Notes under the pieces: model-generated
What the model saw: the letters and a program-made list of their open reading frames with translations, nothing else
What the model was told of the DNA's origin: nothing
Databases searched by the model: none
Shown: positions 1-49,366 of the stretch, in pieces
Numbering within the stretch: the stretch's first letter is position 1
Layout: each line of letters opens with the position of its first letter
Program-made: the position numbers and the translations under genes
Assembly (NCBI RefSeq): GCF_018873765.1
Contig: NC_057922.1
Location: 15,885,563-15,949,562 of the forward strand
Direction of reading: 5' to 3'
DNA: 64,000 nucleotides
From: Telopea speciosissima
Lineage: Eukaryota > Streptophyta > Magnoliopsida > Proteales > Proteaceae

Positions 1-1401
1 TATTTTCTTCTCTTGGATGCAAAGCAAAAGCAAGGGACTGCTATTCAGCTATTGTATGTCTGTGTTCATTCAAACCATTTACAAACCGAACCAATTAAAT
101 TGGAAAATCCAACCTGTTTAATGAATGTTTTCGATTTCACTATTTGAAAGTCGAAACAGTTTAACAATCGATCCAGTTTCAATGTCTACCTACTACACTC
201 CAAACCGAATCAAACCGAACCATTTAACATCCTTAAGACTTTTTTTTTGGTTGATTATCCTTAAGACAATGTAACTAAACGAGCATAGGATTCACTAATT
301 TTAAATTAGGGTCAACCAAGAGCTTTTGAAAATACATAGTCACCTATACTTGATAAAGGTCCCATGACAATTCTCCTATTTAATGGTGTTGCATATGAAT
401 TCAAACTGTTTTACCATTCTTTTAAAATGTTTATAAATTAAAAAAATTAACTAAAATGATAAATCACCTTCATAATCCGATTTTCTCGATTTTTAAAATA
501 AAATAAAAAATACATAAAACCACAAAGTTTCCTAAAAAAAATATAAGCATTGTCATCATGGTTGGTTACATCAAAAGGAGGGAGAGGGCTCCATGAGTCC
601 ATGGTCATCATGGTGATGGATCTTGAGTAATTATTAGGAGTTTGAAAGGTTTTTAAACACATTGCCTTTACCTTTTCTTTTATAAAGTCAAATTATTATG
701 TCGATTTGCTCTCTAACCCCAATGTGAGACTATGGAAACAAAAGTCCAAGTAAATAATTTCTTGGAAGACCATCAACTTTTCTTATGGTTTTAAAACCGA
801 ACCAACCACTTACATGCTTGCTTGGTTCCAATTTTTTTTCTGGTTTATTTGTTGGTTTTTTTCTAAAATCAAGGTTTTGTTCTAATTAGGTTTGAGTTTG
901 ATATTCACCCAAACAAAAAAAGGGGTTTGTCAATGCATGGTCAAGAGAAAGGAATCTAGGAGTTGAGGGTTTCTTACTGTTTGGTCTGGAATCTGGACTC
1001 TGGACCCAAGGCCACTCTTCTACGTGGTTTAAATATCCGATCCAGATCCAAACTGCAGGCCCAACATGCTCAGGTTAATCAGGAAGGATGAAAATTTCAT
1101 CTTCCAACCGGTTACAGTATTATACATACAATTTCAAAACTCTGCCACGTGTACACCCATCCATAGAAATGTCGATGTCTTCGTCTCGGACAGTATCCGA
1201 AAAACCATGTATACGAAAGTATTTCCGTAAATTAACGCTTCTCCCGTTTCTGCTTTTTTATCTAAATAATTAATAGATTAGTTACCACTGAAAGCAATAC
1301 CGATGAGCGAACTCTGCTTGCACTCTTCTCTCTCTCGTGGGTCTGAAGCTAAAGAAAAGTTGCAGAGAGGAGCCAGAGAGAGAGAAACAGAGGAGAAAGA
1401 G
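1..1401. other. AT-rich 5' spacer and BTB gene promoter
   Basis: I see no gene here. Positions 60-230 repeat the short motif AACCGAAC many times, a low-complexity sequence common in plant spacers. One tiny insertion with a target duplication sits at 229-267 (listed separately). Positions 1310-1400 are rich in CT and GA runs, as in plant 5' untranslated leaders, and lead directly to the BTB start codon. Confidence 0.5.
229..267 (-). mobile_element. LINE-tail micro-insertion with 11-bp target duplication
   Basis: The direct repeat atccttaagac occurs at 229-239 and 257-267. It brackets a 17-bp insert, nine T followed by ggttgatt. Read on the minus strand the insert ends AACCAAAAAAAAA, the same end as the larger LINE copies at 46753 and 50263. 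This fits target-primed insertion of a LINE transcript truncated to its 3' tail. Confidence 0.65.
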
Positions 1402-4400
1402 ATGAGTGATTCAAAGGTAGAGACAATCTCGAGGCTTGCTCAATGGAGGATCGATAGCTTTGGCCCTTGCTCTTACAGACGCTCTGAATCCTTCAAGGTC
1501 GGAATCTGGAACTGGTAATTAATCTCTGCATCTTCTTCGCAGAATCTTTAGCCTTTTCATCTCTTTTAGTTCTTTAAATTCTTGGGTACTTCTTTTACCA
1601 GTGTAAAAATGACTAATTTCATAGTCTATTCAAAACCCAGGTACTTATCAATAGAGAAAAATCGTTATCTCTACATTCGTCTCTTTCCAGAGCCTTGTCG
1701 AGCCTCGAAGGAGCAACCACCAATTGCCAGATTTGTTCTTCGAGTCTCTAATATTGGTGCTAACCGAAGACCGTACATTTCCCCTAGTATGTCTCTTTCA
1801 ACTTTCAATTGTTTTTGTGACTCTTTAAAGTATGCGGGATTCATAAGCAATCCGATAGAGGGGGAAAAGAAGAGGAAAAATTGATGATTTCCGCCTAGTC
1901 TTTGTACAAAGTATTCGTTGTTTGGTCTGTGTTCCATATTTCCTATCGCTCCCTTCACTGAATTAAATGTTGCATAGTAGACAAAGAGGAGACTTTCCTG
2001 CATTGGGCTTAGTTCAAGGATCTTGTGTTCTTTTGGTGTGGGGTTTCTTGTGTTTAAATTTATTTTTTTATGGGTAAAAGTGGAAGTGACCTAATCCAGC
2101 TTAGTTAAACCTAGTTCACGAATGCTCGATGATATGTATGTTCGGCATTTGAACAAGTTGTATTTCTTTGTAGACTGATACAAGAGCGTCTGTGTGGTGT
2201 TACTGCTGCTATATATTTGGATGGGTAGTCGCTGATATACTTGAAAGTGGTAATGGGAAGTTCTGCTTGACCTCCTATCAGAAATCCCAGATGTTTTTCA
2301 ACATATCGAAAGAGTCATAACTTGGTTTTGCAACAAATTTTCTCTGACATTCAAATTTAGAAGAATCTTTAGAGTTCCTTCACAGCAGAATAGCTTGAGT
2401 TCTTCTGAGGTTTCCCTGCCTTCTTTCAGTCTTCCTGCGAATTTCTTGATGGGAATACTTACTCTTTTGTTAATGAATGTGGGCATCATTAATATTATAT
2501 GCGAAGGCTTTTTTTTTTCCTTCTGATTTTGTACCAAAATATATAGAAAGATGAAGCATGTACTTTTCGACAGAACTGATTGAAATCCACACTTTCTTAT
2601 CTCACAGTGTGAAAAATTATGTAGGCCATCTGAAACTTGCGTACTCACAAGTGTGAAAAATTAAGAAGGCGCTCTGAAACGTGTGCAGTTATACATTGAT
2701 GAGAAACATAGCAGCTTCCCTTATACATGTGGATTAAAAAAACACTGGTACTACCACAAACAGGTTATTGATACTGCCAATTTGACCTAACACTATTGCT
2801 AGACACAACAGAAGTTACTGATTGTCTGGACATGAGATTGCCAGGCAGATCATCACCAAACCAAGAAAGGAAACTTTCCAAATATGCAGGTAGAATAACA
2901 AACGGACACAAAGTCGAATTTTTTACGTTGAAACCCTCCATGGAAGAGGGGGATCCAGGGGAAAAATCTGATCTAACTTCTGTTATAAAAATAAGGGAAT
3001 ATAGTGGTGCTCCTCCCAAGTTTTTTGCTCAATCTTGAGGTTGACACTTTAACAGAAAACAGAAGAAAGAGATGAAGTAATTTTATGTAGTAATCGATGC
3101 ATATACAAGGTGCATTACTATGTTTAAATAGAACAACCAAGAAAACTTATAAGGGAAGACTTCTACAAGAAAAGGAAAACCAAACCAATGTGATCTCAAC
3201 CAACAAGGAAGGAGGAGAGTCATTTAAACAGGGAAAGATGAAACTCATCCAATATTGTACTCAATAGTGATCCATTGTATCTCTAGCTAGCACTACTGCT
3301 TGCTTTGTCATGAGGTGTTAAAAACTAATGGATAAAATACTGGGTTACTGATGTAGTGAATGTGCTCCATGGCCAGGAGAATTGGGAAGGGGGGGGGGTG
3401 GTTAGTCCCACATCGGTTGGGTAGTATGTAACTGCTGAGCTTACGACCTTGGAAAGGCCTCTCCACTCTGAAGCTCGGGCTTTTGGGTTGGACGCTGTCA
3501 AATGGTATTAGAGCAGGTTGTCTGTGCACCGGATACATGAAGGGCCCATGGCCTAAAGGTAGGGTGAGTGCAGTTCCATGGACAGATTGAGGGGTTTAAT
3601 CCCACATTTAAAATATCCTCTTAGTGAGCAATGATTTGGGGTTGTTGCATGACACATAACTTTGACATGATGGATATGGCTGAAGCTTTCTATACTTTTG
3701 GCATAGAGATTCAATAGAACAGGTCAAGCAAGACCTTAGTATTGTCCTAAAAAGGATACATTGACTAAGTACTGGATAATTTTAGGATGAAGCATTGTTT
3801 TTGAAGTGTAGCACCTATAATTAAAGGTGACAAACTTAGTCTGGATCATTGTCTTATGAATGATTTAGAGAAGCAAGAAATATAGTATATCCCATACGCG
3901 TTTTCTGTAGGCAGTTTAATGTATGCTCTGATCTACATAAGACTTGATATTGCCTTCACAGTGGGAGGCTTGGAAGATTCCAGAAAGATTGCTTCGTCCA
4001 CTATGGAAGCAGAAGTTGTGGGGTGTTATGAGGCTGTCTCTCATGCATATTGAGAAGCCAATACGGATCTTCTGTGACAATACTGCTGCAATTTGCTTCT
4101 CTAACAATATGTGCTCAATGAGTTGATACATTGAGATAAAGTACTTTTTTGTTAAAGAAGAAGTTCAAGATTGTCCAGTAGCGATAGAATATGTTGGTAC
4201 TAAGAAAATGATTGTTAGCCTTTTCACAAAAGGGTTTCTGCCTATAGGTATTTGTGGATCATGTAGGTCGTATGGGACTATGTAAATCATTATGTGATTG
4301 ATGTTTATTAAGAATAGTGTTATGTACAGCTGATGATTCTGAATTTAAGTATTGCATTCATTCTTGTTTTGCGCAAATAGAGTTTGAAATGAAAAACGCC

Positions 4401-6943
4401 TATTAGGACAAAAGGGCAATAAAGTTGGATCATGAATTGACCATGGGGTTGATTCCATAAAGTTGAAGATTACCACATAAAGGTTTCATTTTGAAAATAA
4501 TGGCTCATTGTAAAACATGGGAGGGAGTGTTCAGATATTGGACATGTACCGCCATGATTCATGGGTTAGAATTATCATTTTTGAACATTAACTAGTCCAT
4601 AAGGATCATAGTTGTCGAGGTGTCTAGGCGACCCAAGGCATTGGAGGGGGCCGGATGCAAGGCGACCAAGGCATCCAAGGCGCCTGGATGACTAGGCAAA
4701 GCTTTGATAACTATGATAAGGATTAAACCTGGATGTTATAGTATGGGTGTATGGGCATACATCAAGTTCACAACTCAGACATTTTCTTGGCATGTGGCAA
4801 TATGGGCCAAGTGGGAGAATGTTGGCTTACGTGGCCCAAATGCATTATCCCTCTCAATGAGATGTCATTGCAGTTGTTGAGGTTCAACAACAGACATATG
4901 GGAGTAATTGCAAATTTGCAACAACATCCATCTCCGTTGTGGGTCTGGGAGAATTCTGCATAGACCAGAAAACCCTGTTGGATAAGTAACAGTTAGAGAT
5001 AAACACTACTAAGTTTGGTTAGTGGCACATTGGAAAACATGGTAAGGAGATAACTGATCCTAATGGAGTCAAGTCCACAACCTCCTCTTCACTACAAATT
5101 TCTTATAGAGACAACTAGCTCTTCCAAGGTTGAAGAAAACCCTCAAAAAACTAAATTCTTGAGCAATGAGCACACACAAGAAGCTGCCAGGTGGGCCGTG
5201 GCTACTCCCTTCTTCTCTCTTTGTTTTCTTCACTTGAGCGGAGCCCAAGAGAAAGTGAGAAACCCATGAACCTCTTTAACTTGGTGGTTTATAAGTTCTC
5301 TTGGGGTTTTCCTATTGAGTAGAAATACACAAGGGAAAAAGGGGAAACAACTTGGGTGCTCAAGATCATTATTATTGGGCATTGTTTTTCCAATTTCCAC
5401 CGCAGCATCAAACTTGGCAACAGCAGGTCATCTCTGAAAGATCGGTTTGTTCTTAGACAAGTTCGGGAGTTGTATTGTGTTAAGAGAAGGGGGATTTTTG
5501 AACTTTTGTGGAGGTTACCATGTATTTTCTCTGTTTGACTACATAACCTCAAGTTTTAGGCATATATGTGAGTTACTTGCCTGGTGAAAGCAATCTTGGA
5601 TTTGGCCCATTGTTTTATCTTGAGATCAAAGAGTTGGCCATGTAAATATCTGTGTTATGGTGAACACTTCTTTTATAGGGCATGGAATAAGTCAGGTTTG
5701 GGTTGCATCCACTTAAATCCAGACCTGAATGCGACTTGGATTCATGATGATGGACCCAAATCCGACCAAAATCCAAATAGGTCATATATATGCATCATAT
5801 ATGGGTCAAATTTGGATATTTAAACCCAAATCTTTGGTTCTTTTTCTGCTGAGGATATATAGAGACTTTACCAAGGTATGGCCTTGATTTGGAGCTATAT
5901 CTGGTTGAAGCCCACATGCATGATCTAAATCTGACACGATTATAAATTGCATTTGAAATTATAATTCAAATCTCGATTAAATGGATTCGAATTGGAGCAG
6001 ATCTATGCCCTATTCTTTTCAATTTATGCCCAGTTTGATTTTCCTGGCAGTAATATTGCTCTATTATTGGCATGTTTCTGTGCTAATGTCTTAATATATT
6101 ATTGCTTGATGTTGCAGTTCATGAGAGATTGCTCCGGACCAGTGAAGACTTTGTCTGGCCTGTTGATTCCACTTTTCATGGTCGATTCATCATTGATGTT
6201 GAATTTCTGGACCTTAAGATCTGTCCATTAAATGTCAGTCTCTTCAGATAATTTCCTATTATATTCTGGTGTCCACCTTCCAGTTAAATTAGTTTATCTT
6301 CTTTAAAATGTTTCTGACTTATGCCCTTGACACTTAGGGAGGGGAACCCTTAACTGTATGGCCCTGTGATGGAGCAATGCAGTCTCTTGCAACTCAAACC
6401 ACTCTGCGGTGCCTCTCCCGTATGCTTGATGAAGCTATCCATGCAGATGTCACAATCAACACGACTGATGGTAGTTTGAGAGCCCACAAGGCTTTTCTGT
6501 CTGCAAGCTCACCAGTATTCCGGAGCATGTTTGAACATGACCTTAAGGAGAAAGAATCCTCTACAGTAGAGATAGAAGACATGTCACTGGAGTCATGTAC
6601 AGCTCTCCTAAGTTACTTGTATGGGACCATAAAACAAGAGGATTTCTGGAGGCACCGGTTGGCATTGCTTGGAGCGGCTAACAAGTATGACATTGTTGAC
6701 CTCAAAGATGCCTGTGAGGATAGCCTCTTGAAGGACATCAACTCCAGCAATGTCTTGGAGAGGCTGCAGGAGGCCTGGCTATACCAACTGAACAAGCTGA
6801 AGAAAGGGTGCTTGACGTACTTGTTTGACTTTGGCAAGATATATGATGTGAGGGATGAGGTCAATGACTTCTTCCGCCATGCAGATAGGGAACTTGTAGT
6901 TGAGATGTTTCAGGAGATACTTACTGTTTGGAAGCCTGTATGA
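1402..6943 (+). CDS. BTB/POZ domain protein, At1g21780 type (4 exons)
   Basis: The likely role is a substrate adaptor for CUL3-type E3 ubiquitin ligases, which is inferred from the family. Exons are 1402-1514, 1641-1786, 6118-6233 and 6338-6943. All introns are GT-AG and the phases (2, 1, 0) join without a stop to give 326 residues, the same length I recall for Arabidopsis At1g21780. Residues 1-138 are the conserved N-terminal region, which is MATH-like. The BTB fold starts near residue 155 (motif DVTINTTDGSLRAHKAFLS). A conserved helical tail ends in VWKPV. The start at 1402 is chosen because the protein then begins MSDSKVETISRLAQ, as in relatives; an upstream in-frame ATG at 1303 would add a poorly conserved Arg/Glu-rich stretch. 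Intron 2 is 4.3 kb and carries a copia remnant and a MITE. No disabling change is visible. Confidence 0.93.
3395..4310 (+). mobile_element. Degenerate Ty1/copia remnant (LTR end, primer site, RNase H part)
   Basis: This lies inside intron 2 of the BTB gene, in the same orientation. Positions 3400-3500 look like the end of an LTR. They are followed near 3503 by tggtattagagcaggtt, close to the primer-binding site complementary to plant initiator tRNA-Met. Positions 3905-4270 encode, in shifting frames, pieces of the copia RNase H region: SSTMEAE, EKPIRIFCDNTAAICFSNN and LFTKGF. A piece resembling DHVGRMGL follows near 4258-4280. Integrase and reverse transcriptase are missing, so the copy is internally deleted, frameshifted and inactive. 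Confidence 0.75.
4607..4714. mobile_element. AGGCG-type foldback MITE
   Basis: Terminal inverted repeats start atagttgtcgagg and end ctttgataactat. They enclose repeated aaggcg/ctaggcg units. The same family recurs near 44588-44709, ending ccttgacaactat, and as a lone end near 51847-51870. It is non-coding and sits in BTB intron 2. Confidence 0.6.
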
Positions 6944-8095
6944 TCCCTCCTATGCGCGCAAAACTCATTGGCCGTTAATACATCCACTCACAATTGTATG
7001 TATGTAGTTTTGTATGTTTTACAAGAATATTACATTGTAATTAGTCAATGAGACACTTGCAGCTGAGAGTGCTTGTTGGATGTAGTGTGTGTATTTTGTT
7101 CAGAGATTTGCATGGTTCATGCCTGAAACTACTCTTATAGCTAGCCTTCTTCCCTAAATTTGGAAATAGGTGAGAGAGTGAGTTTAGTATTTTTTCAGCT
7201 GTGTATAATGTTTTTGATGCGTGTTCCTCATGGAGCCCAATTGAACATACCATCCATTATTCTGAGCTTTTATTGAATTTGGATCTTAAAAGGTTGGGAA
7301 TGCAAACTATCCAGAAGAGTAAAATTTTCTTCATCTATGCCTGTAGGGAAATAGATGTGAATTCTAGCAGAAGCTTCACTGCAGGGATGTACAGGTGTCA
7401 ATCCTTTCTCTCTGATGGGTACAAGTACACGAGTTAGGTTCCTCAGCACGTACCAACAGATGAACATACATGTGAGAGCCAACCACATGTTCTATTTTTG
7501 CCATTTATAAGGGGAGGAGGGGGTTTTTATGGAAATAAAATTAAAATGTGATTGGCTCTGAAATGTACATTCACCTGTTGGTACGTGCAGATGATCCATT
7601 GTCGTATGAGTTCGGTGTTTTAAGTTGTTGGGAGTTCTATGACTTCTTACGCGGTTGCTTCTGTAACAGTGTGTCCCGTCGTGTTGGACGATTGAATTTT
7701 ATGGCAAGTAACCACCAACTCCTTCATCGTTCGACGAATCAGAATCGGTTGGATCTGATTCCCATATCAGCAAATGGGGTGACCCAATTAATTGGATCAT
7801 ATCAGTAATTGAATTCTTGATCCTGTTTCACCCGTAGATGTAAGTCAAAGGTAAATCTTTTTCTAGCTTGAATGTCTTCTATATTCGTGTATTTTACTAT
7901 CATTTTCTCTTGATCTCTTGACTCTAACTATTAATCCATCAGATCAGGGTCAGGGGACCCTGATAAAAGAAAACAATACCTGAAAGAGAAATAAGACAAT
8001 GAATCAATTGAATCAATTCATACAAGTTTGACTCTTACTCAGATGTGATCAAAATGAACAATTTCTCCCAAGAAGATCAAAAACCTCCAAAGGAG
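6944..8095. other. Spacer between BTB gene and first EF-hand gene
   Basis: The first few hundred bases are the BTB 3' untranslated region. A palindromic MITE lies at 7446-7589. I see nothing else coding; the short open frames at 7201-7437 and 7548-7808 have no recognisable protein features. Confidence 0.5.
7446..7589. mobile_element. Palindromic MITE
   Basis: The left arm gcacgtaccaacagatgaa and the right arm ending ttcacctgttggtacgtgc are near-perfect reverse complements. The match extends about 40 bases on each side, including gagagccaa and ttggctctg. The central 55 bases are unpaired and hold a G-rich run. No clear target duplication was found, so the superfamily is undetermined. Confidence 0.65.
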
Positions 8096-8332
8096 CTGTC
8101 CAATTCAAACCTCACCCTACTTTTCAATTTGTCATTCATCATTGACGTCTTAATCACACTAGAAATTTCTGGAAATTTCATGGAAGCTGTGGTGGACTAA
8201 TTTTTCTCATAGCCTGTCCAATTCAAACCTCACCCTACTTTTAAATTTGTCATTCATCATTGACATTTTAATTACACTATAAATTTCTGGGATATTTCAT
8301 GGAAGCTGTGGTGGACTAATTTTTCTCATAGC
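8096..8332 (+). repeat. 118-bp tandem duplication upstream of EF-hand gene 1
   Basis: Two head-to-tail copies lie at 8096-8213 and 8214-8332. Both begin ctgtccaattcaaacctcac and end with ttctcatagc, with only about ten differences. The pair ends about 100 bases before the ATG of the first EF-hand gene. It therefore lies in the proximal promoter or 5' leader and may duplicate regulatory sites. Confidence 0.9.
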
Positions 8333-8435
8333 CACTCATTTTTTTCTTCTTCATCAGATTTAACCCATTGACTGTAGCTGCTGGTACACATAAAGCACTT
8401 GTTTAAGGCTTCAAATTTAGAGAAAAGAGAGAGAG

Positions 8436-10960: not shown

Positions 10961-11430
10961 CCAGCCCGACTTGGCCCGGCGTGTGTGCATGTATGAAAAT
11001 AAATCCCAAAAACCCTAGAGACAAGAGAGCATGGTGAACATTTCTTTCATGGAACCCAACCCTAGTAGTTTCCCTTAATCTTATAAATTACTAACAAGCA
11101 TTATCATACATAATCCGTCAGACGACCACCCAGTCTATAAGAATTGATCTTTCTTTCTATTATTGTTGCTTCCAAATAACAATAGGTCAAGAAAATCCCA
11201 TTAGTCACCATAAATGTGGTCCATCAATCTAATAAAAATGTATGTAACAAGTGAATGATGGAACGTAAAATATATCATCAATGACTTAATGCTGCCCAAG
11301 TGTATAAGAAAGAGACCTTTGAATGATACAAAAAGATATCAACCATTCAAAATGCTAGTCTCTCTCTGAGAGTGAGAGAGAGAGAGCCGATGTGGGACTA
11401 AATTTTCAATATTCCCCCGACACATGTGGG

Positions 11431-11483
11431 GATACATATTCTGATTTTTTTTTTCTTTGGATAAGATGGATACATGTTCTGAT
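11431..11483 (-). mobile_element. LINE-tail micro-insertion with 15-bp target duplication
   Basis: gatacatattctgat (11431-11445) is repeated with one change at 11469-11483. The repeats bracket a 23-bp insert, a T tract followed by ctttggataagatg. The minus strand ends CCAAAGAAAAAAAAA, fitting a truncated LINE tail with one substitution. Confidence 0.65.
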
Positions 11484-11687
11484 AACATGTAAAGTTTTCA
11501 TCCAAAAAATTAAAACAAGTGGAAGGACTCCCAGGTGTATAAGGGGGGTTGTAGACTACTCAATAGCTGATCGATGTGAGACTAAATCCAACAACATATG
11601 CTTCTGACCCATAACCCCCCCCCCCCCCGGCAAACTTGAGGCGGGTTCTTCCCTAGCTATCAACCCCTGAAGTATTGTGTGAGAGAC

Positions 11688-12814: not shown

Positions 12815-12857
12815 AATATTTATGTTTTTGTTTTGGTGAAAAAAACAATATTTATGT
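12815..12857. mobile_element. Micro-insertion with 11-bp target duplication
   Basis: aatatttatgt occurs at 12815-12825 and 12847-12857 around a 21-bp insert, ttttgttttggtgaaaaaaac. The ttttggtg core followed by an A run resembles the other inserts, but the orientation is ambiguous. Confidence 0.5.
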
Positions 12858-13395: not shown

Positions 13396-13604
13396 TAATT
13401 AACATAAGATAACAATTTCTTAGATTTGGATGATCTGCTATCCCCTGCCCATGTGGCTGGTGTGACCTCATATAGGCATGGGTGAAATGACTGGCCTACC
13501 CACTGATTGAGCACCCTGCCCGAGTGGTGTGTCATGTGTGACCACACGCTGACCACACGGGCAGGCGACAACAAAGTATCCCGATTGCAATTTCTTAATT
13601 CACT

Positions 13605-13648
13605 AGTTTGTATGAGTACTTATTTACCAAAAAAAAAAGTTTGTATGA
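13605..13648 (+). mobile_element. LINE-tail micro-insertion with 11-bp target duplication
   Basis: agtttgtatga occurs at 13605-13615 and 13638-13648. The 22-bp insert is gtacttatttacc followed by nine A. The plus strand ends TTACCAAAAAAAAA, like a LINE 3' end, so the orientation is opposite to most of the others. Confidence 0.68.
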
Positions 13649-13664
13649 CAAGAAGTTGTTCACT

Positions 13665-13755
13665 TTAATTAATCTCTTACGTTTTTTGTTTTATCTTTTG
13701 TAGTTAACAAAAATTTTTTTGGTAACATTTGTAGTTAACATTAATTAATCTCTTA
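13665..13755 (-). mobile_element. Two nested micro-insertions
   Basis: The outer repeat ttaattaatctctta lies at 13665-13679 and 13741-13755. Inside it, tttgtagttaaca occurs at 13697-13709 and 13728-13740 around the 18-bp insert aaaatttttttggtaaca. Removing the inner event leaves a 30-bp T-rich outer insert (13680-13709) with a 15-bp duplication. The order of events is therefore readable: the outer insertion came first and the inner one second. Confidence 0.65.
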
Positions 13756-14313
13756 AGTGGATCAGACAAATGACAAAACCACCAAAGACAAGTGGACCAC
13801 ATTAAACATATGATGCAGCCAGCCAACAAGTGGCCATTTATTAAATGGCTACGGGACTCATCTGTGAAATGACCAATCCATCCCTGTTTTGGCCGGGCTG
13901 CCCGCCACGGTTGGAGGAAATCCTTTTCGATTTATTAAGCCCAGATCAGAGAGATTGCCCTGTTAAGTAGGATATCCATGTACTGACTATCACTCGTAGC
14001 GGCTGCGTGACTCAGCTTCAGTGGGCCCAGTCCAAAAGCAACACGTGTCTTACATTTTATCACTTACAGTTCACAACCAAGCGTAATCTCGTAATTTTTA
14101 ATACCGTAAAGGATAATCCTGTAAAATCCTGAATTTGGTAAACCATTCTCGTCACCACAATCCTCTCTCGTCTCCATCGTTTCCGATCCATTTCATCCCT
14201 TTTTCTTCTCGAAATGAAAACATAAACCAGAAGAAGAATTAGAACAGTAACCAAGCTGCAATTAGGGTCTTAGTTTGGAATTTGGATTAGGGTTTCTTCA
14301 GATTTCTGCAAAA

Positions 14314-17300: not shown

Positions 17301-20300
17301 CTACTGCAGACCACACATACAATTGTGTACCCATATCCATCAAGTGTCAGTTCATGGGCAAATGTAGGGCAATATCATAAATCCATCCAAACCAATAAAG
17401 TCAGATGACCCTATTGGTTTGCTATTGAATCTACTATGGTGGTTGAACAATCCTTTTTTTGCGTCAAATTCAAGTCAAGCAAAATTTGCACATTGCAAAA
17501 CAAAGCTTCGAATAGCCCAACTGGGTATCTCGTGCAAGAAATTCATGCTGTAAGTACTGCTCTTGCCCTGCCCAATAGCAAGAGTTGGGTGTCAGATTTT
17601 TCCTCTATGTATATATACATGTAATGGAGGGATAGCTTATCAGGCTTTCCTGGCCCAGAGAAACTGGACTCAAAGGACGTGCACATGAAAAGGTCTGCTA
17701 TTTGCCCTCATATCTGAGATTTGGTGCCTTAGTTCGACATTCGTTGTTGTTTAAGCAAACACTAAGGTGCAAGTTTGTCAGCAGTATATTTTCACCCGTT
17801 AAAAGTTTTTTTGTTTACTTTCCATATCCTACGCATCCCGTCTCTGATTCTCCTTGGAGTCTTCAACTAACTTGATGCCCATAATTAGCTTGGTGATGAA
17901 GCTCTCTCTGCAACTTATGAAATGTTATGGGTCGTATTTAAGCACGAATGTATTGTTTTTTCTTCATTTTTACTCTGAGTTGCTTGGCACAATGGCATAC
18001 TCATAAGTGTTCCCTTGGACACCTGAATACTTTTTAGATAAGAATGTGGCGGCAAGGACATGTTGCCTAGCTTAACAACAAGTCCCAACTGATATTTGCC
18101 ATGTGGTTAATAATGTGGCAGCTTCCAACCATATGAATAGGTAGCACCTCTCATGCATATGCCAACAAATATTGAATTATTTCCCCATAACTTTGGCTTT
18201 TATCTTTGACTTTTTAACCATATTTTGAATTGCTGTTTTTCCATGTATCAACTCGGATTGGGCTGAAATTTTATAGGTAGATAGGAGATTATAGGACTTA
18301 ATTGTGTGACAAATTTGATGGTCAGGTGGATTGCCAAGTGGCAGATATCAGTTGGGATTTGTTGTTAAGTGTGGTAACATGTCCATGCTGCTACCACCGA
18401 CTCTTTTTTTGTTGGGGGGGTTGGGGGTTGGGGGAATGGATATTAGAAACCTGAAATGGTTTCGAGAGGGACAGAATCTAACCTTGCTGAGTGTTATGTC
18501 AATACTGTGATTCTTCTTAGTTACTGGCAATCAATAAGTCTTGTTATCATGGATTTACATTTGCAGGGACAAAGAGCAATGAACTGCCATTTACTTATAA
18601 AAGACAAAGTAAATAATGCCGAGAAAGAGCCAGGTTATGATGGGATAACCAGTATGATTGAATTGGTAATGTCTCATTGCACCATGTGGGAACGAGGTTC
18701 TTGAAAGCGCAAGATCTCGTTACCTACATGCTAAAATATGATTTAGTGATAGTTCCAGTCTAATTGATGTCCCTGTTGAGTTTTTTTTTTTTTTTGGGTG
18801 TCTATTCATTAGGTGATTATTTGAAATTTTATCATTATTTACATCTATATTAGAATTTTTTGCTTTCATTGTTTATTTCTCTTTTCCTCCATTTAATTAA
18901 TATTTATCGTTCACTAAGAAGAACAATAATAATAATCAATTGCTTTTTATGTTCGACCAAAAAAAATGCTTTTTATGTGAGGAATGCTTAACAAAAGCTG
19001 TTGTGTTATGGATTACATGGCTGAAGTTTTTCTGAGAACTGTTATATATGAAGTACTAAAATATATATGTTGTCCCAACACTTTTGACTTGTTTAGTGCT
19101 GAATGTCTACAAGGTTGTGGAAAATAATGAATAAATTTGGATAATGAAGTTGTTCCTACATGTAGTTTTTAACTTAAAAGTTTTTGTTTTGATCCTGAAA
19201 TATTCAAGAGATAATAACAACAAACCTTTACTATTACTGGACAATTCAATGGATGAATTATTCTTTGCTTGAAAGCTGAAAAGCTCCAGAGCAGCTGATA
19301 TTTATCAGCAACAACTCCAACAAGTAAAACTCAGTCATGAGAGACAACTGTGGTCAGGCAGTCCTTAACTCCTTATGGGGACGATCTATAAGTCGTACAA
19401 GATAATAAGAGAAAGGGAGAGGTTCTTTGAGCAGGTGGCATGGGGGAGCATGCCAATGAAGTGCTTTAAAACGGTATCACATATAGGAGGGCAGCAAAAT
19501 CATTTCATGTGATGAGGAGAGAAATAAACACAGAGATGCTTGCATACCCTGCCCCGGCGGCTCAGAGAACCTATTCCCTAAGAGAAAATATATTGTTGTT
19601 GTGTCTGCTTTTCACTATCTAGTTAATATGCCCACATTTACTTTCCTCATATCACTGATAGTTTTGTTGTAGCCACTTTAAAAATAAATAAAAAAAAGGG
19701 GCACTGTTGTTTGTTGTCTTGCACACTCTTCATAATGCATGTGTGTCATGAAGGGTTTGCCCATGATGACTTGCTTGTATGTATGATGATTTTAGTTTAG
19801 CCACTTTATTGCACTTGTCAAAAGCTATGTGTGTTTCCCTGAATGAACTTCACAGAAATGGTCTGGATGATGAATAAGTATGGGATTCTACCGGGAATAT
19901 TACTTGGATATTTGTCAGTATACTGCTTCCTTGGCATGTCTATAAAAAAAGGGCGTACCTAGTGCATGAGGCTCCTGCCATTACGGGGTCTGGGGAGGGT
20001 CATAATGTACGCAGTCTTACCCCTGATTTCGCAGAGAGGCTGTTTCCAGACTCAAACCCATGACTTCTTGGTCACAATGGAGCAACCTTACCGTTGCACC
20101 AAGGCCCACCCTCTTCCTTGGCATCTCTATATTGTTATTTATACGACTTATCTTCTGCTTCATTTGCAATTTGGAAAAATTATTTTTTAGTTCAATGTTG
20201 ATTTAATTAGCTGTTTTGCTTTTATTTCCAATTTTGGACTTTTGTATCCTGTTTGAGTGGAAACATGCTTAGTATGATAGTGTGCCTCCATCATTGAGAA

Positions 20301-23692: not shown

Positions 23693-29211
<5,519 letters not shown>

Positions 29212-33414: not shown

Positions 33415-33457
33415 TTAGTATCACAATTTTTTTTTTGTGGGTAAAATTAGTATCACA
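33415..33457 (-). mobile_element. LINE-tail micro-insertion with 11-bp target duplication
   Basis: ttagtatcaca occurs at 33415-33425 and 33447-33457 around a 21-bp insert whose minus strand reads ttttacccac followed by ten A and a final T. Confidence 0.62.
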
Positions 33458-40200: not shown

Positions 40201-43200
40201 AGTTTGTAGACACTCCTAACAAACCGTAAAACTGAAGATAAATGAAACAAATGAGAAAAGCTAATGAATAAGAAATATGGGATGTAAATTTGCTTGAATG
40301 GGATGAAGAAAACATAGACAAATGGAGGATGAAACACTAAAATGATAAAATAAAATAACCAAGTGAACAAGCCATTCTTAAAATTTATTTCAAACGAGAC
40401 TATGAAAAATCACAAGAAAACACAAGGAAGATGCACATTAGCTATTGCAAAAATCTAACCCTTAAATCTCCACAGAACTTAATAAGCCCTGCCCCAACTG
40501 GGATCAGCAACTCAAATCCTGTTTTCCCATTCCATAATATATTGTCATTTCAGCCCATAAATTCTAGAAACAGCTTAATAAAACAACGAAGAATATAATT
40601 CAATTCCTGAATATAAGGAATCTCTAAATCGATAGAATATAGAGTACAGGTTCCAAGTCAAGATATGTGTGGATGATCGATAAAATAGAGTAACAGACTC
40701 AAATGTTGATATCTGCTCACACGTAAAGCATCCTTCTACAGCCAAACTCATAGAATACCAAGCATAGCCAATGCAAAACAGTTGATTATTTCGATTTGCC
40801 TCCAAATGCATAATAGGAACCTTACTGAAAGTTCTTTCTGTTGTATTCTTTTGTTTTTCTAGTATTCATTTATGGTGAAAGGTTTAATACACAACCATGT
40901 ATGAACACAGTCAACACTTTAGCCGTCGGATAGGAATACTCGATTCTTGTGCGACTATATGACGACTGAAGTGTTGACCGTGTATCATATACACGACCGT
41001 GCATGAAAATCGGTCATTTTATCTATTTATTTATTAAAATCTAGTTATTTATGAAATATACAGAAACTTCTTAAATATTTATAAGAATATCAAAAGCAAC
41101 AAAGATAAGTGCAGATAAACTGGAAGGCCATAGAAAAACATTGGCTCAAACCTTACCATCAGTACGGATCCTTGGTCTTAAAATCCACATCTTCCTCCAA
41201 GAACCTTCATATCTAGACTGTAGAATCTTGTAACTTTCCACTGGTCCGGAGAGCTTCATACAAACAAGATCTGAGTTTCAGCTTGTAAAATATTTACCGA
41301 TATCTGGATCTTCGGAGTCCGGACTGCCAGTTGCTTAATCTATGTTGAACAAGGTAGATTTTCTACACATCACAAGAGTTACCTACATCATCTCCTCCAT
41401 CTGAATTCCCCTGACCAAACTGCCACCTAAATTTGTGATGTTGAACTCTATAGGAGTGTTGGAATTACTTCTCATACATGAACTCTAAATTGCATATAAT
41501 TTTTTAAATAAACCCAAGATAATTGAATATTGAATAGAATTTAGACAACCTGATTCACTGGAGTTTCAACTCCGAAGATCCAAAAACTCTTGCATTCAAA
41601 TCCAATGGAAGTAAGTTCATGACGTACAAGCAAATTCAGATTACCTGCCAAGCCTTTAAGCATGCATTTCGCCAAAACACCGGATTACGAATTGTATATC
41701 TCCATTTTCGACAAACACATGCTGCCCTCCCCATGCTGTAAGGACTCATTCTCGCAAAAACCTAGATATGAAATTCATAACAGAAAAATAATAATAATAA
41801 ATAGCATATAAACATAACATTGTCCTATGAAAAACAGAGTCAAGCTTGCCGACATTTTAAAATTTCACAACTTTTAACTAGGCTAGTGAACAAGGAAGCA
41901 GATTAGCAGGTCTACCACTAAAATGAATATTTTGTGCACACAAATGATTATTTAAGTATTTAACTAAATATCAGCCAAATGGATTGTCCAAGTCAGCAGA
42001 ACCTAGACGAGCCATGGCTTTTACAGTATCGAAGAGCAATAGTGAAAATAAAACCAATAATCCCAAATAAAGCTTAAGTGAAGCAAACACTCCACAATTC
42101 TAACTTTTCAGCTAGCTGAACTTCAGTTATGGAACCACAAACATGTCAATGAACAGATGGAATCTAATTGAATTGCGGTCCCTTAATTTGAAAAATGATT
42201 TCCACAAAGATTTCCATCATATGCTCACCCTTCAACGTCGAATATGTTGGATGTATGTATCCATCAAACCCAATTTAAAGTTTTTAAACTAAAATGATTT
42301 GCATTATTATTTTATGTGCGATTGTTTGTCCTAATGTCACTTATAACTTAAAGTGTTCACAACTAATGACAGAATTGGGCATTCTGTTAATAGGATTGTT
42401 ACATTCAGGGTTCCAGGTTTAGGGTTTTGACCCTGGCAGACACCGAAACTTCGCAGGTTTCGACCGAAACCTGGAATTTTTGTGGGCTAAAATCTAAACC
42501 TAGGTTTCGAGGCCCAGAAAATGGTTTTTTTGTTTTTGTGTGTGCTGAATTAGTTTCACAAAAAAAAAACACCCAAATGGTACTTGTGGTTTGGACCCAA
42601 ATTTGCTAGTGTACGTTGAATGTCATTGTACACTAGCCCTATAATAAACACTGACTACATATAATTTAGCAACTGGAAATGTAAATATGCAAATAAAATA
42701 ATCAAAACATACATTAGGTTTGGGAAATACAAGTATACAACACTCATCACTCAAAACCACATGGTGTTTCTTGGCGGGTCTAATCCACGAGCTGTGTATG
42801 ACTACAGATTCCGTTGACACTCTTCCGAATTCAGCACATATGTATCCTATAACATATTTTGTGCCCCATTGTTCTGAACAATGATAGTTCATGATAGCCC
42901 ACCTATGAGCCTCATCATCAACATACCAAAGGTATCCCAACATAAGGAATTGCTCATTGAGACTAGAACTGGGTGGAGCCGGCACAAATGGTTGGACCAG
43001 ATACAAGAACATGTTGTCGACGGAAGATGACCCAGCACCTGACCCACCCCTGTACTCAATGTTAGGGAATGTAGTAGTGTCAAACCCTACGAAACAAGGA
43101 GGTCTCAATCGAAACCTGTTGAAATATGGCAGGTTTCAATCAAAACCAGTGAATTTTATTTATATATGGTTTGACCATGTACCAAACCAGTATTGACCCT

Positions 43201-46200
43201 TGGTTTCGTTTCGGTTAGTGTTGAAACTGATACGTCTCGGCCGAAACTCTTAAAACCATGGTTACATTGTATATTTTCGAAATGTAAATCCAAAATATAA
43301 ATGCAAGTATCTAAATTGTATGTGTAGCGAACTAGATCATCTTAATAGTCTTGCATAGTTGCATGGGCTTTTGTCAGTTCTATACGCAAAAAGACTCTTC
43401 GATAGTTATTTTGGTCCCCATTCTGAGAGGTCCTTACCTTTGCAAATGGACTTTGTGCGTTTTGATGTACCAAAGGTTGATTCCTACCCTACCCATATAT
43501 CGGTACATTGGATTCACAATGTTCATATTTGAATGCAAGAGATGCTCGACGTGGAATCAACTTCTCAAGTAGGATGGATAGCTTGAGAAAGTTATCCGAT
43601 TATGATTAGACCAAATTCGGAGCTTGGTGGCAATTTTGTTAATAGATTACAAATGCATTTAAAATATTATTATTTAATGATTATATTTGAAAGTGTTCTG
43701 TAAAAGTTCTATGTCCAATCTATAGTCGACATTCTCTGTATAAGTTGTGCCAATGGATTAGGGTTTTTGACGAAGATTCAATCCATGCCATAAGCCCGTC
43801 GTGCAATTTTGTTAAGTGGAAAGACTGAAATGTAATTGTTTCTATCACTTGAAGGGGTTTTAAGTTGTATGCATCTAAGGGTGCACTTCTGAAATAGTTT
43901 GTTTACTAATTAAAAGTTACACTTTTAAATAAACAATTGTATTCACTAAAATAGGGTTAGACTCGCATAAGGCAACCCTAGTTGGATCATCTAACAGGAT
44001 CCCATCACTCGTCTTGTAGAATGCTGTAAGGAAACTGGGTCTCAACACCAAGATTCGAAACACCGAGATCTTACGGTGAGTTTATGTTTTTTTCTTCTTC
44101 TTTGTTTCGATAATGATGTTTCGGTGGGCAAATGGCCACAATTGGCTCTGAAACTTTAAGGGCAGCTTGTTTTTGGCTTAATAAACATGTTTTAATCTTC
44201 AAATTTATTAAAAAAACACCCAATTTGGTGTTTTGGATTCGCATCCTTGGTTGGCAGTAAACATCAAACTTTTAATATAAAATTGCCTATTCTACACATT
44301 GTTTGGGTGCTATGACACATAATTGGCAAGTAAAACAATTAAATTATGCAATAATGGATGAAGACACATAATATTGAATAATTATATAAGAAATAGTTAA
44401 AGACTAAAAGTTTCTACTACAATCTACAAAATACAGTGAAGTGTTCACAATGCATATTACGTAGACACCCGACCCAATTACAGTGAACAATACATAAGTC
44501 ATAGACACCCTACTACACTAGTCTTCCATGTCCCAACTCCCAACAAGATAATACTATGAGTATGTGGAGTTGGGATCCAACGAGAACGGCTCCTAGGCGA
44601 CGCCTTGTCACATCTTAAATTCTGGTGTCGGTGTGTCGCCTTGTTGGTGCCGACTTGGTTTTTGACCCCCTCACTCGCCTTGGTTTGCCTAGGCGCCTTG
44701 ACAACTATGGTTCTCGTACGCCCACATACCTCTTGCCTATTGATATGAACTATGACGTGCTGGATCAAGTCCACTCATGGTCTGATGGAGACGACGTGCA
44801 TTGTAGCCAAATCTTCCACAATAGGCAGCAATCGATCTCTTTGTAGTGATGTGGCAAGTGGCAACCCCCAGTAGTGTATCCCAATAAAATTGAGTGATGA
44901 TATGGCCAAAAAGTCAAGAACCAAGGTTTTCCCTCTTCTCTGTCAAGTTACTACGAAAATTCAAAGTCTGTCTCGAGTTGGTGCTTTTTTACAGTGTGGA
45001 ATGTATCAGTTATCCGAAATTTCAGCGAGACGGTACCGAAATCTCGCCAAAATTTCAGTCGATATTCGAGTTAGTGCATATTTTGTGTCCCACATATAAA
45101 CTTGTCTCGAGGAGCTCGAGATTTTGGCAAGATTTAGAACTATGCTCAACACTAGTAAATAAGCAACTAAGGGGAGATAGAAAGAGGCTTTTGAGAATTA
45201 GGGTTTTTCTCCCCACACATTGTTCTCCATTATTAGTGAATTATGGTTTTGAATCCTAGTAAGAGAACCATGGTTGTTCGTCCTATGCAATTGTTGTTCG
45301 AGGAATACCCAAGTCTTCCCTACAAACATCTCAGGTTCAAGTGCTGAATTCCTTTGGAGATACTGCGATAGTGGTAACATTTAAACCTTATTTTTTTAGT
45401 TTCGTTTGAATACCCTAATTCCTACAAAGAACAGTTGATGGTTGGAAATTTTTATTTGGCATCGCCGCCAACAGAATAAGAATAGTGCAATCCACCCCAA
45501 AGAACGCATTAGGATTTTCTCCACCAAAAAAAATAAAGGCCGCCTCCATCAGAAAAATATAGCATTAATGGCTAAAGTTAGTGTTCGCGGTACCTCAAAT
45601 AGCAGTTCATCAGGCAAGCAACGGTGTATGAGTGCCGGATCAACAAATGGCTTACTACTTGCACTCCCAAAAGGAGCAACAGGTCTAACTCTCTTTCCAT
45701 AAAGATCTGAAACAGAATTCCAGGAGACATAAATTATTAAACAGCTCGCTTCCAAAGAAGAACTAAGAGCACTACTGTGCAGCAAATTCAATTTAACTGC
45801 TCAACAACATTGATCCAGTACATAAAAGATGTAAAATCAAAAAAGTATATGTTACATACCAAGCCAAGGTCTTTGTGTAATTAAGAACTGTACGGTTCTC
45901 AGACGAGAAGCCGATTCGAGTTCTTGTGGAACTGACAAGGCAAAGTCTGCAACAGATTGACAAAAATTCAATACAACAGATTAAAAAAAAAAAACACGGA
46001 TTGAAAACCCAACAAAACATGATAATAACAGAAACAGAAACGATTATCTACGTGAAATGAAGTCAGCTATCACGAATTTTCTAGAAATCCGTGTAAATTC
46101 TCAACATAATTCATGTAATAGGCTAACAGCAAGAAGCCAACATGGGGAAAAGCGACGAAATTGATTCTAATCGTTGAAATAAGAGACGCGTGTCATGGAA

Positions 46201-46342
46201 AATTAAGCTTTCGGACAGAAATTCGAATCCTTATGAATGAAACTGCTGAATCGGTACAGGAATATCGAACAGGGAAAGTCATCAATTCTATTGAAATTAA
46301 AAGGGAATTTTTGGCCAGTTGTGAAGGAATACCTGAATTCAT
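34241..46342 (-). CDS. FBP7: F-box protein, FBP7/At1g21760 type (11 exons)
   Basis: F-box proteins recruit targets to SCF ubiquitin ligases. The Arabidopsis relative FBP7 has been linked to translation under temperature stress (from memory). Minus-strand exons in gene order are 46342-46333, 45946-45860, 45706-45594, 41761-41645, 41253-41157, 40171-40098, 35754-35701, 35605-35504, 35165-35107, 34875-34662 and 34300-34241. They total 987 coding bases, 328 residues, with no stop and consistent phases. All donors begin GT and all acceptors end AG. Coding starts with only ten bases in exon 1 (ATGAATTCAG), giving [20 protein letters not shown]. The F-box spans about residues 57-108 ([12 protein letters not shown] into [16 protein letters not shown]). 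Conserved downstream motifs are [40 protein letters not shown] and [15 protein letters not shown]. Introns 3 and 6 (3.8 and 4.3 kb) are transposon-filled. Confidence 0.95.
35330..35500. repeat. Imperfect tandem duplication in FBP7 intron 8
   Basis: About 80 bases (35335-35410, with tcctccaaaagagaaaatat and cagagcagaaata) recur at 35430-35498 (tcttccaaaaagaaaatat and caaagcagaaata). The second copy ends five bases from the exon 8 donor at 35503-35502. Confidence 0.6.
36360..37260 (-). mobile_element. LTR-like segment in FBP7 intron 6
   Basis: On the minus strand a TATA-like tctatataaacg (near 37192-37203) is followed by ttattattgaattaaagtgg, a sequence typical of the start of the transcribed part of plant LTRs, and a CT-rich leader. 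There is no protein frame. It has the same orientation as FBP7. Ends were not determined. Confidence 0.4.
37500..39713. other. FBP7 intron 6 stretch with unrecognised open frame
   Basis: It is AT-rich. A plus-strand frame at 39164-39418 (84 codons, including [18 protein letters not shown]) and nearby broken frames at 38140-38270 look somewhat protein-like, but I do not recognise a family. They may be a decayed gene or transposon fragment. Confidence 0.25.
39714..39867. mobile_element. Mutator-type MITE with 9-bp target duplication
   Basis: taaaaagaa lies at 39714-39722 and 39859-39867. The element (39723-39858, 136 bp) starts gggagatggttctctgagc and ends gctcagagagcctttccc. It shares its ends with the element at 19415-19578 but has a different middle. 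It lies in FBP7 intron 6. Confidence 0.8.
40885..41003. mobile_element. Short inverted-repeat element in FBP7 intron 5
   Basis: The left end tacacaaccatgtatgaacacagtcaacact pairs loosely with agtgttgaccgtgtatcat...acgaccgtgcatg on the right. The central tcggata and cgacg segments are unpaired. A related ggtcgtgcat motif occurs near 30625. Boundaries are approximate. Confidence 0.4.
41002..41145. repeat. Dispersed repeat, copy 1 (next to FBP7 exon 5)
   Basis: About 140 bases beginning catgaaaatcggtc and including ttatttattaaaatct and aagtgcagataaac are repeated at 49367-49505. This copy ends about a dozen bases from the exon 5 donor and lacks the long A tail seen in the second copy. Confidence 0.7.
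42420..45130. repeat. Transposon mosaic in FBP7 intron 3
   Basis: This stretch mixes ggtttcgaccgaaacc-type repeats (42455-42500, 43090-43260), an unrecognised 161-codon minus-strand frame (42623-43108), an AGGCG-type MITE end (44588-44709) and a cgaaattt-rich block (45000-45130). No transposase motif was recognised. It is most likely nested, decayed DNA transposons. Confidence 0.4.
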
Positions 46343-46368
46343 GAGAAATATGAAGAAGATCAAAGTTC

Positions 46369-46431
46369 CTACGTATAGAATTTAGGTAAAAGCTCTGTTC
46401 TCGAGCTCCGACGAGAACGTCGACTCCACAT
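46369..46431 (-). other. Possible upstream ORF in FBP7 leader
   Basis: On the minus strand an ATG at 46431-46429 opens a 20-codon frame rich in Arg and Ser (MWSRRSRRSSRTELLPKFYT) and stops at 46371-46369, 26 bases before the FBP7 start codon. It matters only if transcription starts above 46431, which the sequence does not prove. Confidence 0.3.
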
Positions 46432-46752
46432 GGAGAGAGACAAAACGACGAAGAGGAAAATAAAAAGGGGAAGACATTTCAGAGTAGATGACCGTGCACC
46501 GACTCTAAACTGGCCCACCAACCGTAAAATGTGTGGGGCCTTCCCCAGCTTTTCTTAAATTTGAGGAAGATATTTTGGGAGTTTGGAGCTTATCTTGGTG
46601 AAGTTACAATTTTCACGAAAAAATTATTTCCTGCCAAGAAATCGACCTTCATAACTCACAAGTTACAAATTGTCACAACATACAAGCATGTAGCATGGGG
46701 AAAATAACATAATTCAAATTTCTTTTTTATTTGTTCGATAATATCTGTACTC

Positions 46753-49366
46753 TTTTTTGTTTGGTAATAAGGGGTGTATTGATTCAAACGTGTATTACAC
46801 ATGGTAGGGGATTCAAGAGACTCCCTAAGCCACGTAGTGGAGTTTGGTCAAGTTGTTGATGTAACCGACAAGGGCTTTCGGGCTAAGGTATTGGCAATAG
46901 CATTTGCCTCCCTAAAAATATAAGAAACTTCAAATTATATATGTGATGGATAAAAGTCGGGGTTCTAAAGAACCCTTGTACATCAGTTACCAAAAGATTA
47001 GTGAAAAACATTGGAGGAAGGAAGGGTCAAACTGAACACTGAACAAGAGATTGGCAAAAAAGATAAACCATGCCATCAAAGTTGTCTTGTATCTCCATGG
47101 AAAATGTCGATGGGGATCTTACAAAAAATTGAATGACAACAAGGGATTCAGATTAAAAAAATAAGCTTGTGTAAATCATGGGTAATGATGCAGCATAAAG
47201 CAATGCGAAGTGCCCAGAGTTCAGCTACTAGATTGTAGTAATTCTAGTATATTCAGATAAAGCATGTAAATAGTGCCTTGGGGATCACATATGATACCAC
47301 CAATATCTGGATTCGGCTCCTCTCTAGGGAGCTCAATGCCCAGGGGGCATCCAAGGATTGGGTTGTGCCACACACATCTCGGGGCATGCCTAGGGATGTG
47401 TGTGGCATAGTCCAACAGCTTGATACCCCCTGAGCATGCTAGGTTCCCTGGAGAGGAGCTCAATTGCCAATATCCGTGTGGCCAAGATTTGGTTTTGTAA
47501 AACCATCCGTGTTGATTTGGGGGAAGTTACAATGAGAGAAGAATCGGTATGGAAGAGGAAGAGGGATGACATGTGAGATAGACAAAAGAAGTCATGAGCA
47601 AGAAAGGCACTGGAATGTAGGGTGTGAGATAGATAAAAAGGATTAGAATCAAATGGTAAGGTGTTCCTTGCTTTGCAGATGCTCTAGAGCCAAAGAGGTA
47701 ACGAATTCTCAATTTTCCATGGCAATAATTTTGACACATAACATGAAGAAACCAAAAAAGAAAAGGGATATCATATTAAGTGAAGTGTATAGATGTATAA
47801 AGGTGAAGGATATGAGTGTGCAAGAGTAATGTTTTAGAGCAAAAGAAAAATAAATGTTCAAGAGTCTCATAACTTAAAAGAGAGTCACATAATGGGCATG
47901 TTATAGGAATTTGACAAAAAAAAATAATGACGGAGTCATCTTGTGAGCAAAAAGATTGGGGGTACACCATACAAAAAGATGCACTTTTGGTGAGCAAGGC
48001 AGCTTCTATAATTAGGATCAGGTCTAGTGAGGACCCATATCTTTTTTTTTTGGTAAGAAGTGAGGACCCATATCAAGGTATAAGTGGGAAAGAATAGTAT
48101 GATAAATGGATGATACGATTGGAATGCTACTTAATGTTGATCCCCAAATAAGTGTATCATAGAAAAAAATTGGGGGTAGAGCAATGTTCTGTATATGAGC
48201 AAGGATCGAAGGTTCCAATACTTCCTGTAAGGAGGTTTGGTCTTACTGTCTGTGTGATATGATGTCCGAAATCGTATGAGGAAAGCTGGGTTAGGAAGAA
48301 ATCAAACAATAGTGGAAAAGAAAGCCGGTTGGAGAATGAAAAGTCAATAGATTGACCCAAGTCTTAATGCCGCTATAGGCCTAATTTCAAAACATCACAC
48401 CTAATCAAAAGGCCCTTCTAACCCCAAAAAGAAGCATGGGAGAGGGAAATGTCCCAGACATCGGATTGAGAAAAATATTTTTGTTAGAGAACCTGGCCTC
48501 ACAGATAATGCAAATGTTGAATTAGCCACCACACAACTTTTTCCAAAAAAAGCTTTGTTAAGCATAGAGAATTGAGGAATTCTCATCCTCTACTCATTGG
48601 GAGAAGAGATGATAATCACGTTGATATAAATGAAAGCATTAGGTTTGTCCCAAAAAATGATCGCAATATAGAAGTTAATTTAGATAGAGTGGAATAAAGA
48701 ATGACAAAAGCTTGCACGAGATAAGGTTGTTAATATGTGTTTAAGAAGCACATACCTGCCAGCAAATGAAAGCAAAGAGGGGCTCCAACGAGTGATGCGG
48801 TGGTGAGCATGGTGAATTAGAGGTACTGTGCCTAGTAATGATGGGAGACCCCAAATTATTACTTGATTTTTGAACAAAGGTCATATTTAGAATGTTCGCT
48901 AATAAGGTTTTACATTGAGGGACAATTATGAATAAAATAAACCAGTGATTAAGAGCAATTAATTTATTGTCCTGGTATGACATCAAATTTAGTGAGAATG
49001 GACTAAAAAGAACGACAATTCCTTGATGTGGCCTTAACAAAGTAAAACTATCATTAACAGAGAAAATGTGTGATAATGGAGGACCTCATCATGGGATTTT
49101 AATGGAAGCAACGTGATTATAATAGTAGTGAGGACATGAAGCGACATAATGAATAAGCACAGGAATAAAGGGTTACCCTGATGGATTCCAAATTTGAGAT
49201 AAAAAGGTGTGAGTAGGCGAGCCCTTAATCAAGATGGTTAAACTAACAGAACAAACACATTCCATAATCAAATTAACGTAGGGAAATTGATAAGCTTGAA
49301 GGACAAGCTGTAAAAAGTCCCACTCAACATGATCATAAGCCTTTGAGACATATTTTTCACGCATTA
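46753..49366 (-). mobile_element. Degenerate L1-type LINE (reverse transcriptase to RNase H)
   Basis: Read on the minus strand, 49350-49170 encodes KAYDHVEWDFL, the reverse transcriptase palm region. Near 49050 SVND stands where FADD is expected. Then comes LSFAGRYVLLKHIL (about 48770), a zinc-knuckle CPLCDSLLSYETLEHLFFFC (about 47880), RNase H pieces (GGIICDPQGT about 47285; FREANAIANTLARK about 46895), and the 3' end ttattaccaaacaaaaaa at 46770-46753. There are many stops and frameshifts, and the 5' half is missing. Confidence 0.8.
48026..48074 (-). mobile_element. LINE-tail micro-insertion inside the LINE remnant
   Basis: agtgaggacccatatc is perfect at 48026-48041 and 48059-48074 (16 bp). 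The 17-bp insert is ten T followed by ggtaaga, so the minus strand reads tcttacc then ten A. This is the cleanest example of the class, and it is younger than the LINE it interrupts. Confidence 0.75.

Follow-up and report, generated by a model that had tools for sequence, protein, structure and literature searches.

A 64,000-nucleotide stretch of the Telopea speciosissima genome (the window; C7:15885563-15949562, from an 823-Mb assembly of 1,287 contigs, with contigs C1-C11 measuring 57-88 Mb each) contains very short insertions that consist of a few bases, the trinucleotide ACC and an A tail, enclosed by a target-site duplication (TSD). An origin by target-primed reverse transcription of long interspersed nuclear elements (LINEs) is well supported, because the inserts and the LINEs found here have the same 3' end, ACC plus an A tail. 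Most of the inserts that we selected genome-wide by TSD words are bounded by a template position, not by the number of nucleotides made. We consider it probable that they are products of plant L1-type LINE machinery acting on a template RNA that ends 4 nt before ACC, i.e., on a trimmed 3' stub. A bolder proposal, which we advance tentatively and which could rather easily prove wrong, takes the commonest product of the plant L1 reverse transcriptase in this genome to be a full copy of a processed stub, NNNN-ACC-A(n), whose 5' end is fixed; such copies would number on the order of ten thousand or more and would go unseen by repeat annotation.

Inserts are read here on their sense strand, and d denotes the distance from the first repeat copy to ACC. 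The repeat-insert-repeat structure is present in all nine window events, one of them with a mismatch, and ACC precedes the A tail in seven of the nine, the exceptions being 11431-11483 and the outer event at 13665-13755 (Table 1). The preliminary description of this DNA had reported direct repeats around A-run inserts in both orientations, usually with ACC before the run, together with two LINE ends of the same terminus, and our reanalysis bears it out on each of these points. The LINE 3' ends near 46753 and 50263 finish TTACCAAAC.. and TCTACCAAAAAA, respectively, with matches to LINE reverse transcriptase or RNase H protein upstream of each; in the longer copy, a weak RNase H match (E 0.013) lies near 46781-46921 and a reverse transcriptase match near 49049-49342. 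A further element of 6.6 kb (L016), flanked by a 15-bp TSD and ending CTCTTTACCAAAAATAAAA, encodes an endonuclease, a reverse transcriptase and an RNase H domain, each on an open piece of its own. Since such long copies exist (two in the window and one at L016), the enzyme can make both long and short products, and the shared 3' end and duplication point to LINE enzymes as the agent.

The pattern ATGTGTAAT..ACCAAAA matched the genome 146 times compared with 95 for its mirror, so many of these matches are due to chance. Judged by eye among the 100 matches listed of the 146, LINE-like 3' ends are pyrimidine-rich NNNN-ACC-A, with TTCT, TCCT, TACT, TTCG, TTTA, TATT and others before ACC. Because the starts before ACC vary in both LINE ends and inserts, several LINE families could be the source of the inserts, with single inserts not assigned to families. 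One LINE-like end elsewhere in the genome listing, TTTCTTTCGACCAAAA, can be compared with the TCGACC+A8 insert at 18941-18978. The 3' ends of tRNAs (ACCA) were considered only as a candidate template; the T-rich starts of the inserts are unlike acceptor stems.

The suspicion that these structures arose by insertion proved correct: the inserts at 48026 and at L025 3157 are missing from related copies that retain one repeat copy. An empty relative, in which the repeat stands once and the insert is lacking, was found for two of the four loci queried among related copies. The best-supported insert is 48026-48074, with empty sites supplied by relatives of its host LINE copy. In L030, a related copy on contig C6 that resembles the window over some 1.4 kb, the alignment across this site shows the repeat, TGAGGACCCATATC, only once and lacks the insert; L030 is shorter than the window there by 33 bp, i.e., the 16 bp of the repeat plus the 17 bp of the insert. 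A more diverged copy (L043) has neither the insert nor the second repeat copy, but a few bases specific to L043 occupy the site. The insert at L025 3157-3191 lies in a member of a repeat family for which 14 further matches were obtained, nine of which were aligned (the five partial ones were not fetched); it is present in eight relatives (L034-L037 and L039-L042) and absent from L038, which has a single repeat copy. For L038 alone, a later deletion between the repeats could also account for the empty site. For L011 8156-8722 and window 13505-13855, with three events each, no informative empty relative was found.

The abundance of the inserts was compared with that in randomised sequence. Scanning the window for an A run of at least 7, a repeat of at least 9 and an insert of at most 60 nucleotides returned six inserts, every one with a repeat of at least 11 bp; the scan misses the 11431 event, owing to its mismatch, and both events at 13665-13755. 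Markov controls of orders 2, 3 and 5 (20 sequences per order) gave means of 0.1, 0 and 0.3 for repeats of at least 9 bp and 0, 0 and 0.1 for repeats of at least 11 bp. Outside the window, contig C1 was sampled with 20 stretches of 10 kb, one per 2 Mb and with positions fixed before inspection. These 200 kb hold eight ACC events (L009 6582; L010 5764 and 6848; L011 8256, 8425 and 8561; L019 2138; L025 3157), a count that leaves out A-run rows without ACC (L017 3053, L022 1761, L025 303) and tandem-array rows. Extrapolated to 823 Mb, this corresponds to about 33,000 events (Poisson range about 14,000-65,000), which is an order of magnitude and not a count because two stretches supply five of the eight events and a single contig supplies all of them. 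When ACC-A ends were searched with distances of up to 8 kb allowed, 15 of the 22 forward rows had d of at most 12 (one of them in the L009 tandem array), compared with none of the six rows from the reversed-sequence control. Events can lie close together: three tail-only inserts occur inside 370 bp at L011 8256-8622, and by eye two A-tail inserts are apparently stacked at one target site at L008 1636-1735 (minus strand), one ending TTTCAT plus ten A's and the other TTCGTTTACCAAAA.

Throughout the assembly, ACCA11 occurs 12,147 times and its mirror 4,369 times. The class was then probed with a fixed-word pattern consisting of a 6-mer, a gap of 0-30, ACCAAAAAA, a gap of 0-15 and the same 6-mer, with the mirror as control and with two words only. 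TTATGA gave 47 matches versus 4 for the mirror, and TTGAAT gave 79 versus 0. Thus, the conjectures that the density exceeds that of randomised sequence and that the class is widespread are both upheld, by the Markov and the mirror comparisons, respectively. In the next length bin (first gap 31-61), the signal almost disappears for TTATGA (4 versus 4) and is small for TTGAAT (11 versus 1). In the three of the four TTATGA matches in this bin that were fetched, the repeats measure 6-8 bp; four of the 11 TTGAAT matches (L098, L108, L121, L127) are short inserts that the pattern picked up by starting from an additional word further upstream, and among the other seven, L153 has a repeat of 10 bp and the remaining repeats do not exceed 8 bp, with L154 and L155 among those resembling LINE 3' ends by eye. 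A looser pattern that accepts any A run without requiring ACC gave 367 versus 203 matches; among the matches listed, ACC precedes the run in 18 of the first 50 of 100 rows, at least one of them probably by chance. The strict pattern undercounts, since C runs, T or mixed bases may separate ACC from the A run, as is observed in some inserts (e.g., TTTACCCCCCCCCCCAAAAAAAAAAGGG). Two repeat families carry such an insert at at least eight places each among the matches listed, so other elements later propagated some of the inserts.

Sequences were fetched for 106 of the 126 matches with a short gap; the other 20 were omitted, 16 as members of two repeat families, two as overlapping matches and two as duplicates. 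Paralogous pairs among those fetched include at least L106/L107, L114/L115 and L116/L117, of which only L106/L107 falls within the 75 places (of 106) with repeats of at least 10 bp. In these 75 word-selected events, the repeats average 15 bp (shorter ones being excluded by the cut), and d is distributed as follows: 0, 2 events; 1, 3; 2, 6; 3, 12; 4, 37; 5, 3; 6, 2; 7, 1; 8, 5; 10, 2; 22, 1; and 23, 1. Accordingly, d equals 4 in 37 events, lies between 0 and 3 in 23 and exceeds 4 in 15. Since repeats were extended to the last matching base, some events whose true d is 4 read shorter; simulating this chance lengthening distributes 60 events as 44, 11, 3, 1 and 0.5 over d = 4, 3, 2, 1 and 0, compared with 37, 12, 6, 3 and 2 observed. 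Hence 60 of the 75 word-selected events fit one end point, 4 nt before ACC and 7 nt before the tail, and two of the other 15 (L070 and L137) hold a second ACC and are readable with a smaller d.

The opposite side of the insert behaves differently. From ACC to the second repeat copy, the length is variable (10.8 +/- 4.1 nt), and over the 73 events with d of at most 12, tail length is uncorrelated with d (r = 0.06), for which reason a fixed cDNA (complementary DNA) length was rejected. The 4-nt starts are T-rich and varied, with 21 different ones among the 37 events with d = 4. No association was found with the first four insert bases having been copied from the target (32 offset tests on 33 events, lowest p 0.033), and this origin was rejected. 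Extra 5' G's, as from a reverse-transcribed cap, are not a feature of the three events with d = 5 (TTCTT, TCTTT and GGTTT). As regards an endonuclease target preference at the start of the TSD, A occupies +1 in 45 and +2 in 44 of the 75 events, a boundary blurred by tail A's. Among the 21 events with a non-A base at the end of the tail, A is not in excess, and in 11 of these 21 that final base is the same as the first base of the duplication.

As a plausible mechanism, the LINE endonuclease would nick the target, and the A tail of an RNA ending NNNN-ACC-A(n) would be primed and copied. Copying would then stop at the preferred template position, and the staggered ends would be filled in to give a TSD of 10-20 bp. 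The most likely cause of the fixed stop would be that the template ends there, the LINE RNA having been trimmed or cut to a 3' stub, perhaps one shielded by a protein that binds where ACC meets the A tail. The reverse transcriptase would copy this stub to its 5' end and might then jump to the target, as proposed for full-length insertions. Ambiguous bases occur at 23 of 60 junctions (38%), compared with 27% expected by chance, and together with the mean duplication of 15 bp this would place the inserts nearer to copying up to an RNA end.

Several observations weigh against this stub reading. The main caution is that in the 15 events not selected by word, from the window and the 20 C1 stretches, d is 2, 3, 3, 3, 4, 4, 4, 4, 5, 5, 6, 8, 9, 10 and 12 (hand-entered, under looser tail rules), so that only 8 of 15 have d of at most 4. 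Even in the word-selected set, 15 of 75 events start 5-23 nt before ACC, and the spike rests on two TSD words only. Ambiguous junction bases are somewhat more frequent than chance, the comparison of junctions with human L1 is an analogy only, and the three folded LINE ends offer no RNA feature that would account for the stop. These three ends have no strong RNA structure (z of 0.86, -0.60 and -1.25), and a hairpin stop at the LINE 3' end was rejected because they fold weakly.

The preliminary description had attributed the inserts to target-primed reverse transcription that aborted almost at once. Much of this stands, namely insertion, a TSD of LINE length, the LINE ACC-A end and the enrichment over controls, whereas abortion at random shortly after the start is not supported and is in our view improbable. 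Random or nucleotide-counted abortion predicts a spread of 5' ends, and a fixed RNA end or block predicts a spike; therefore the spike at one template position disfavours abortion, as do the tail lengths, uncorrelated with the end point, and the almost empty next length bin. Abortion would nevertheless account for the LINE-like 3' end, the TSD and the short length, and values of d from 5 to 12 occur in 13 of the 75 word-selected events and in 7 of the 15 others. Given this wider spread in the unselected events, part of the class may be ordinary early abortion. On the whole, a fixed template end or a fixed block fits better than near-immediate abortion. A fixed block on intact LINE RNA, 7 nt into the body, where anchoring to ACC or a bound protein would halt synthesis and host repair would join the short cDNA, is the alternative that we regard as unlikely and yet worth keeping in view: it explains the same spike and tail data as a fixed RNA end, and some excess of ambiguous junctions is what end joining would give. 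However, the junctions are much nearer to chance than those reported for truncated human L1, and the three folded LINE ends offer no strong predicted structure to block synthesis.

The explanations that dispense with a LINE fare worse. Tandem duplication with filler DNA at double-strand breaks is very improbable: other short-gap repeats are indeed common in the sample (164 rows classed as other, compared with 30 showing an A run or ACC-A; both counts include tandem arrays), but filler would show neither a constant orientation of ACC-A with respect to the duplication nor a preferred lead of 4 nt, and the mirror counts of 4 and 0 against 47 and 79 speak against it. Accidental juxtaposition of repeats and A runs in AT-rich sequence might, judging by their appearance, explain many of the 31 fetched word matches (of 106) with repeats shorter than 10 bp; for the class itself nothing favours it once the Markov and mirror controls and the empty sites are taken into account, and we consider it refuted.

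Table 1. Tail-only inserts and LINE copies in the window (inserts given on the sense strand; d in nt)
Feature	Position	Strand	TSD	Insert or 3' end	d	Remarks
Tail-only insert	229-267	(-)	11 bp	AATCAACC+A9	5	
A-tail insert without ACC	11431-11483	(-)	15 bp, 1 mismatch	CATCTTATCCAAAG+A run		class membership uncertain
Insert, longer 5' part	12815-12857	(-)	11 bp	GTTTTTTTCACC+AAAACAAAA	9	
Insert	13605-13648	(+)	11 bp	GTACTTATTTACC+A9	10	
Outer, older A-rich insert without ACC	13665-13755	(-)	15 bp			split by 13697-13740 event; membership uncertain
Inner insert	13697-13740	(-)	13 bp	TGTTACC+A7TTTT	4	nested in 13665-13755
Insert	18941-18978	(+)	12 bp	TCGACC+A8	3	
Insert	33415-33457	(-)	11 bp	TTTTACC+CACA10T	4	
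Insert	48026-48074	(-)	16 bp	TCTTACC+A10	4	inside old LINE copy 46753-49343
Degraded LINE copy	46753-49343	(-)		3' end ..CCCCTTATTACCAAACAAAAAAG		
LINE fragment	50263-50767	(-)		3' end ..AATAAAGTTTATCAATATTTCTACCAAAAAA		RNase H match E 2e-12

Elsewhere in the window, three reading frames match the Pfam families BTB, EF-hand and ATP-synthase C, and short overlapping repeats lie at 55128-55341 within a 172-codon open frame.

If this picture is right, LINE activity has left in a plant genome a large set of insertions below the size that repeat annotation can pick up, and the preferred 5' end records a step of retrotransposition, either RNA trimming or a reverse-transcription checkpoint, that would be directly testable in plants. 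The inserts would also serve as small markers, and they would be miscalled as simple indels or tandem duplications. A literature search by titles and abstract openings, covering part of the matching papers, found no description of a tail-only class, which, if true, would be smaller than any retroposon class known to us.

Among known systems, plant break-repair tandem duplications with filler share the direct repeats that flank a short insert; to our knowledge, such filler is neither LINE-like nor polar. Closer in kind are 5'-truncated L1-type LINEs (human L1 and the plant L1 clade), which share the A tail, the 10-20 bp TSD, the LINE 3' end and the occurrence in both orientations. Truncation points of human L1 are spread over kilobases, and the spread expected of an ordinary 5'-truncated LINE was not found in our word-selected set. 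In the sections of one study that bear on this point (PMC2912911), junction microhomology is at chance level in full-length human L1 copies, whose duplications peak at 14-16 bp, and is present in nearly 80% of 5'-truncated copies; unlike the latter, with their frequent microhomology, many inserts here end at one point, 7 nt from the tail. The same sections describe few junction microhomologies for full-length Alu, a likeness to the inserts here. Short RNAs that LINEs copy in trans, short interspersed nuclear elements (SINEs) among them, likewise involve a short template copied to its 5' end and a TSD near 15 bp. However, the inserts consist of 7 nt plus a tail, with neither promoter nor body, and with many 4-nt starts they do not form one family: they are too short for an internal RNA polymerase III promoter, and 21 starts in 37 events replace the single family sequence of a SINE. 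In maize, LINEs were likewise found by a TSD and a simple-sequence end, and the survey, in its portion on LINE annotation, mentions 'severely truncated LINEs' (PMC2774510). As laid out in that portion, it required a length of 5-10 kb (L1-like) or 3-5 kb (RTE-like) plus a protein motif, and because of these criteria it could not see inserts this small. Finally, plant L1 lineages with stringent and with relaxed 3' recognition are distinguished in the pertinent part of a review by Ohshima (PMC3747384), and against this background the ACC common to the inserts and the LINEs would be of interest.

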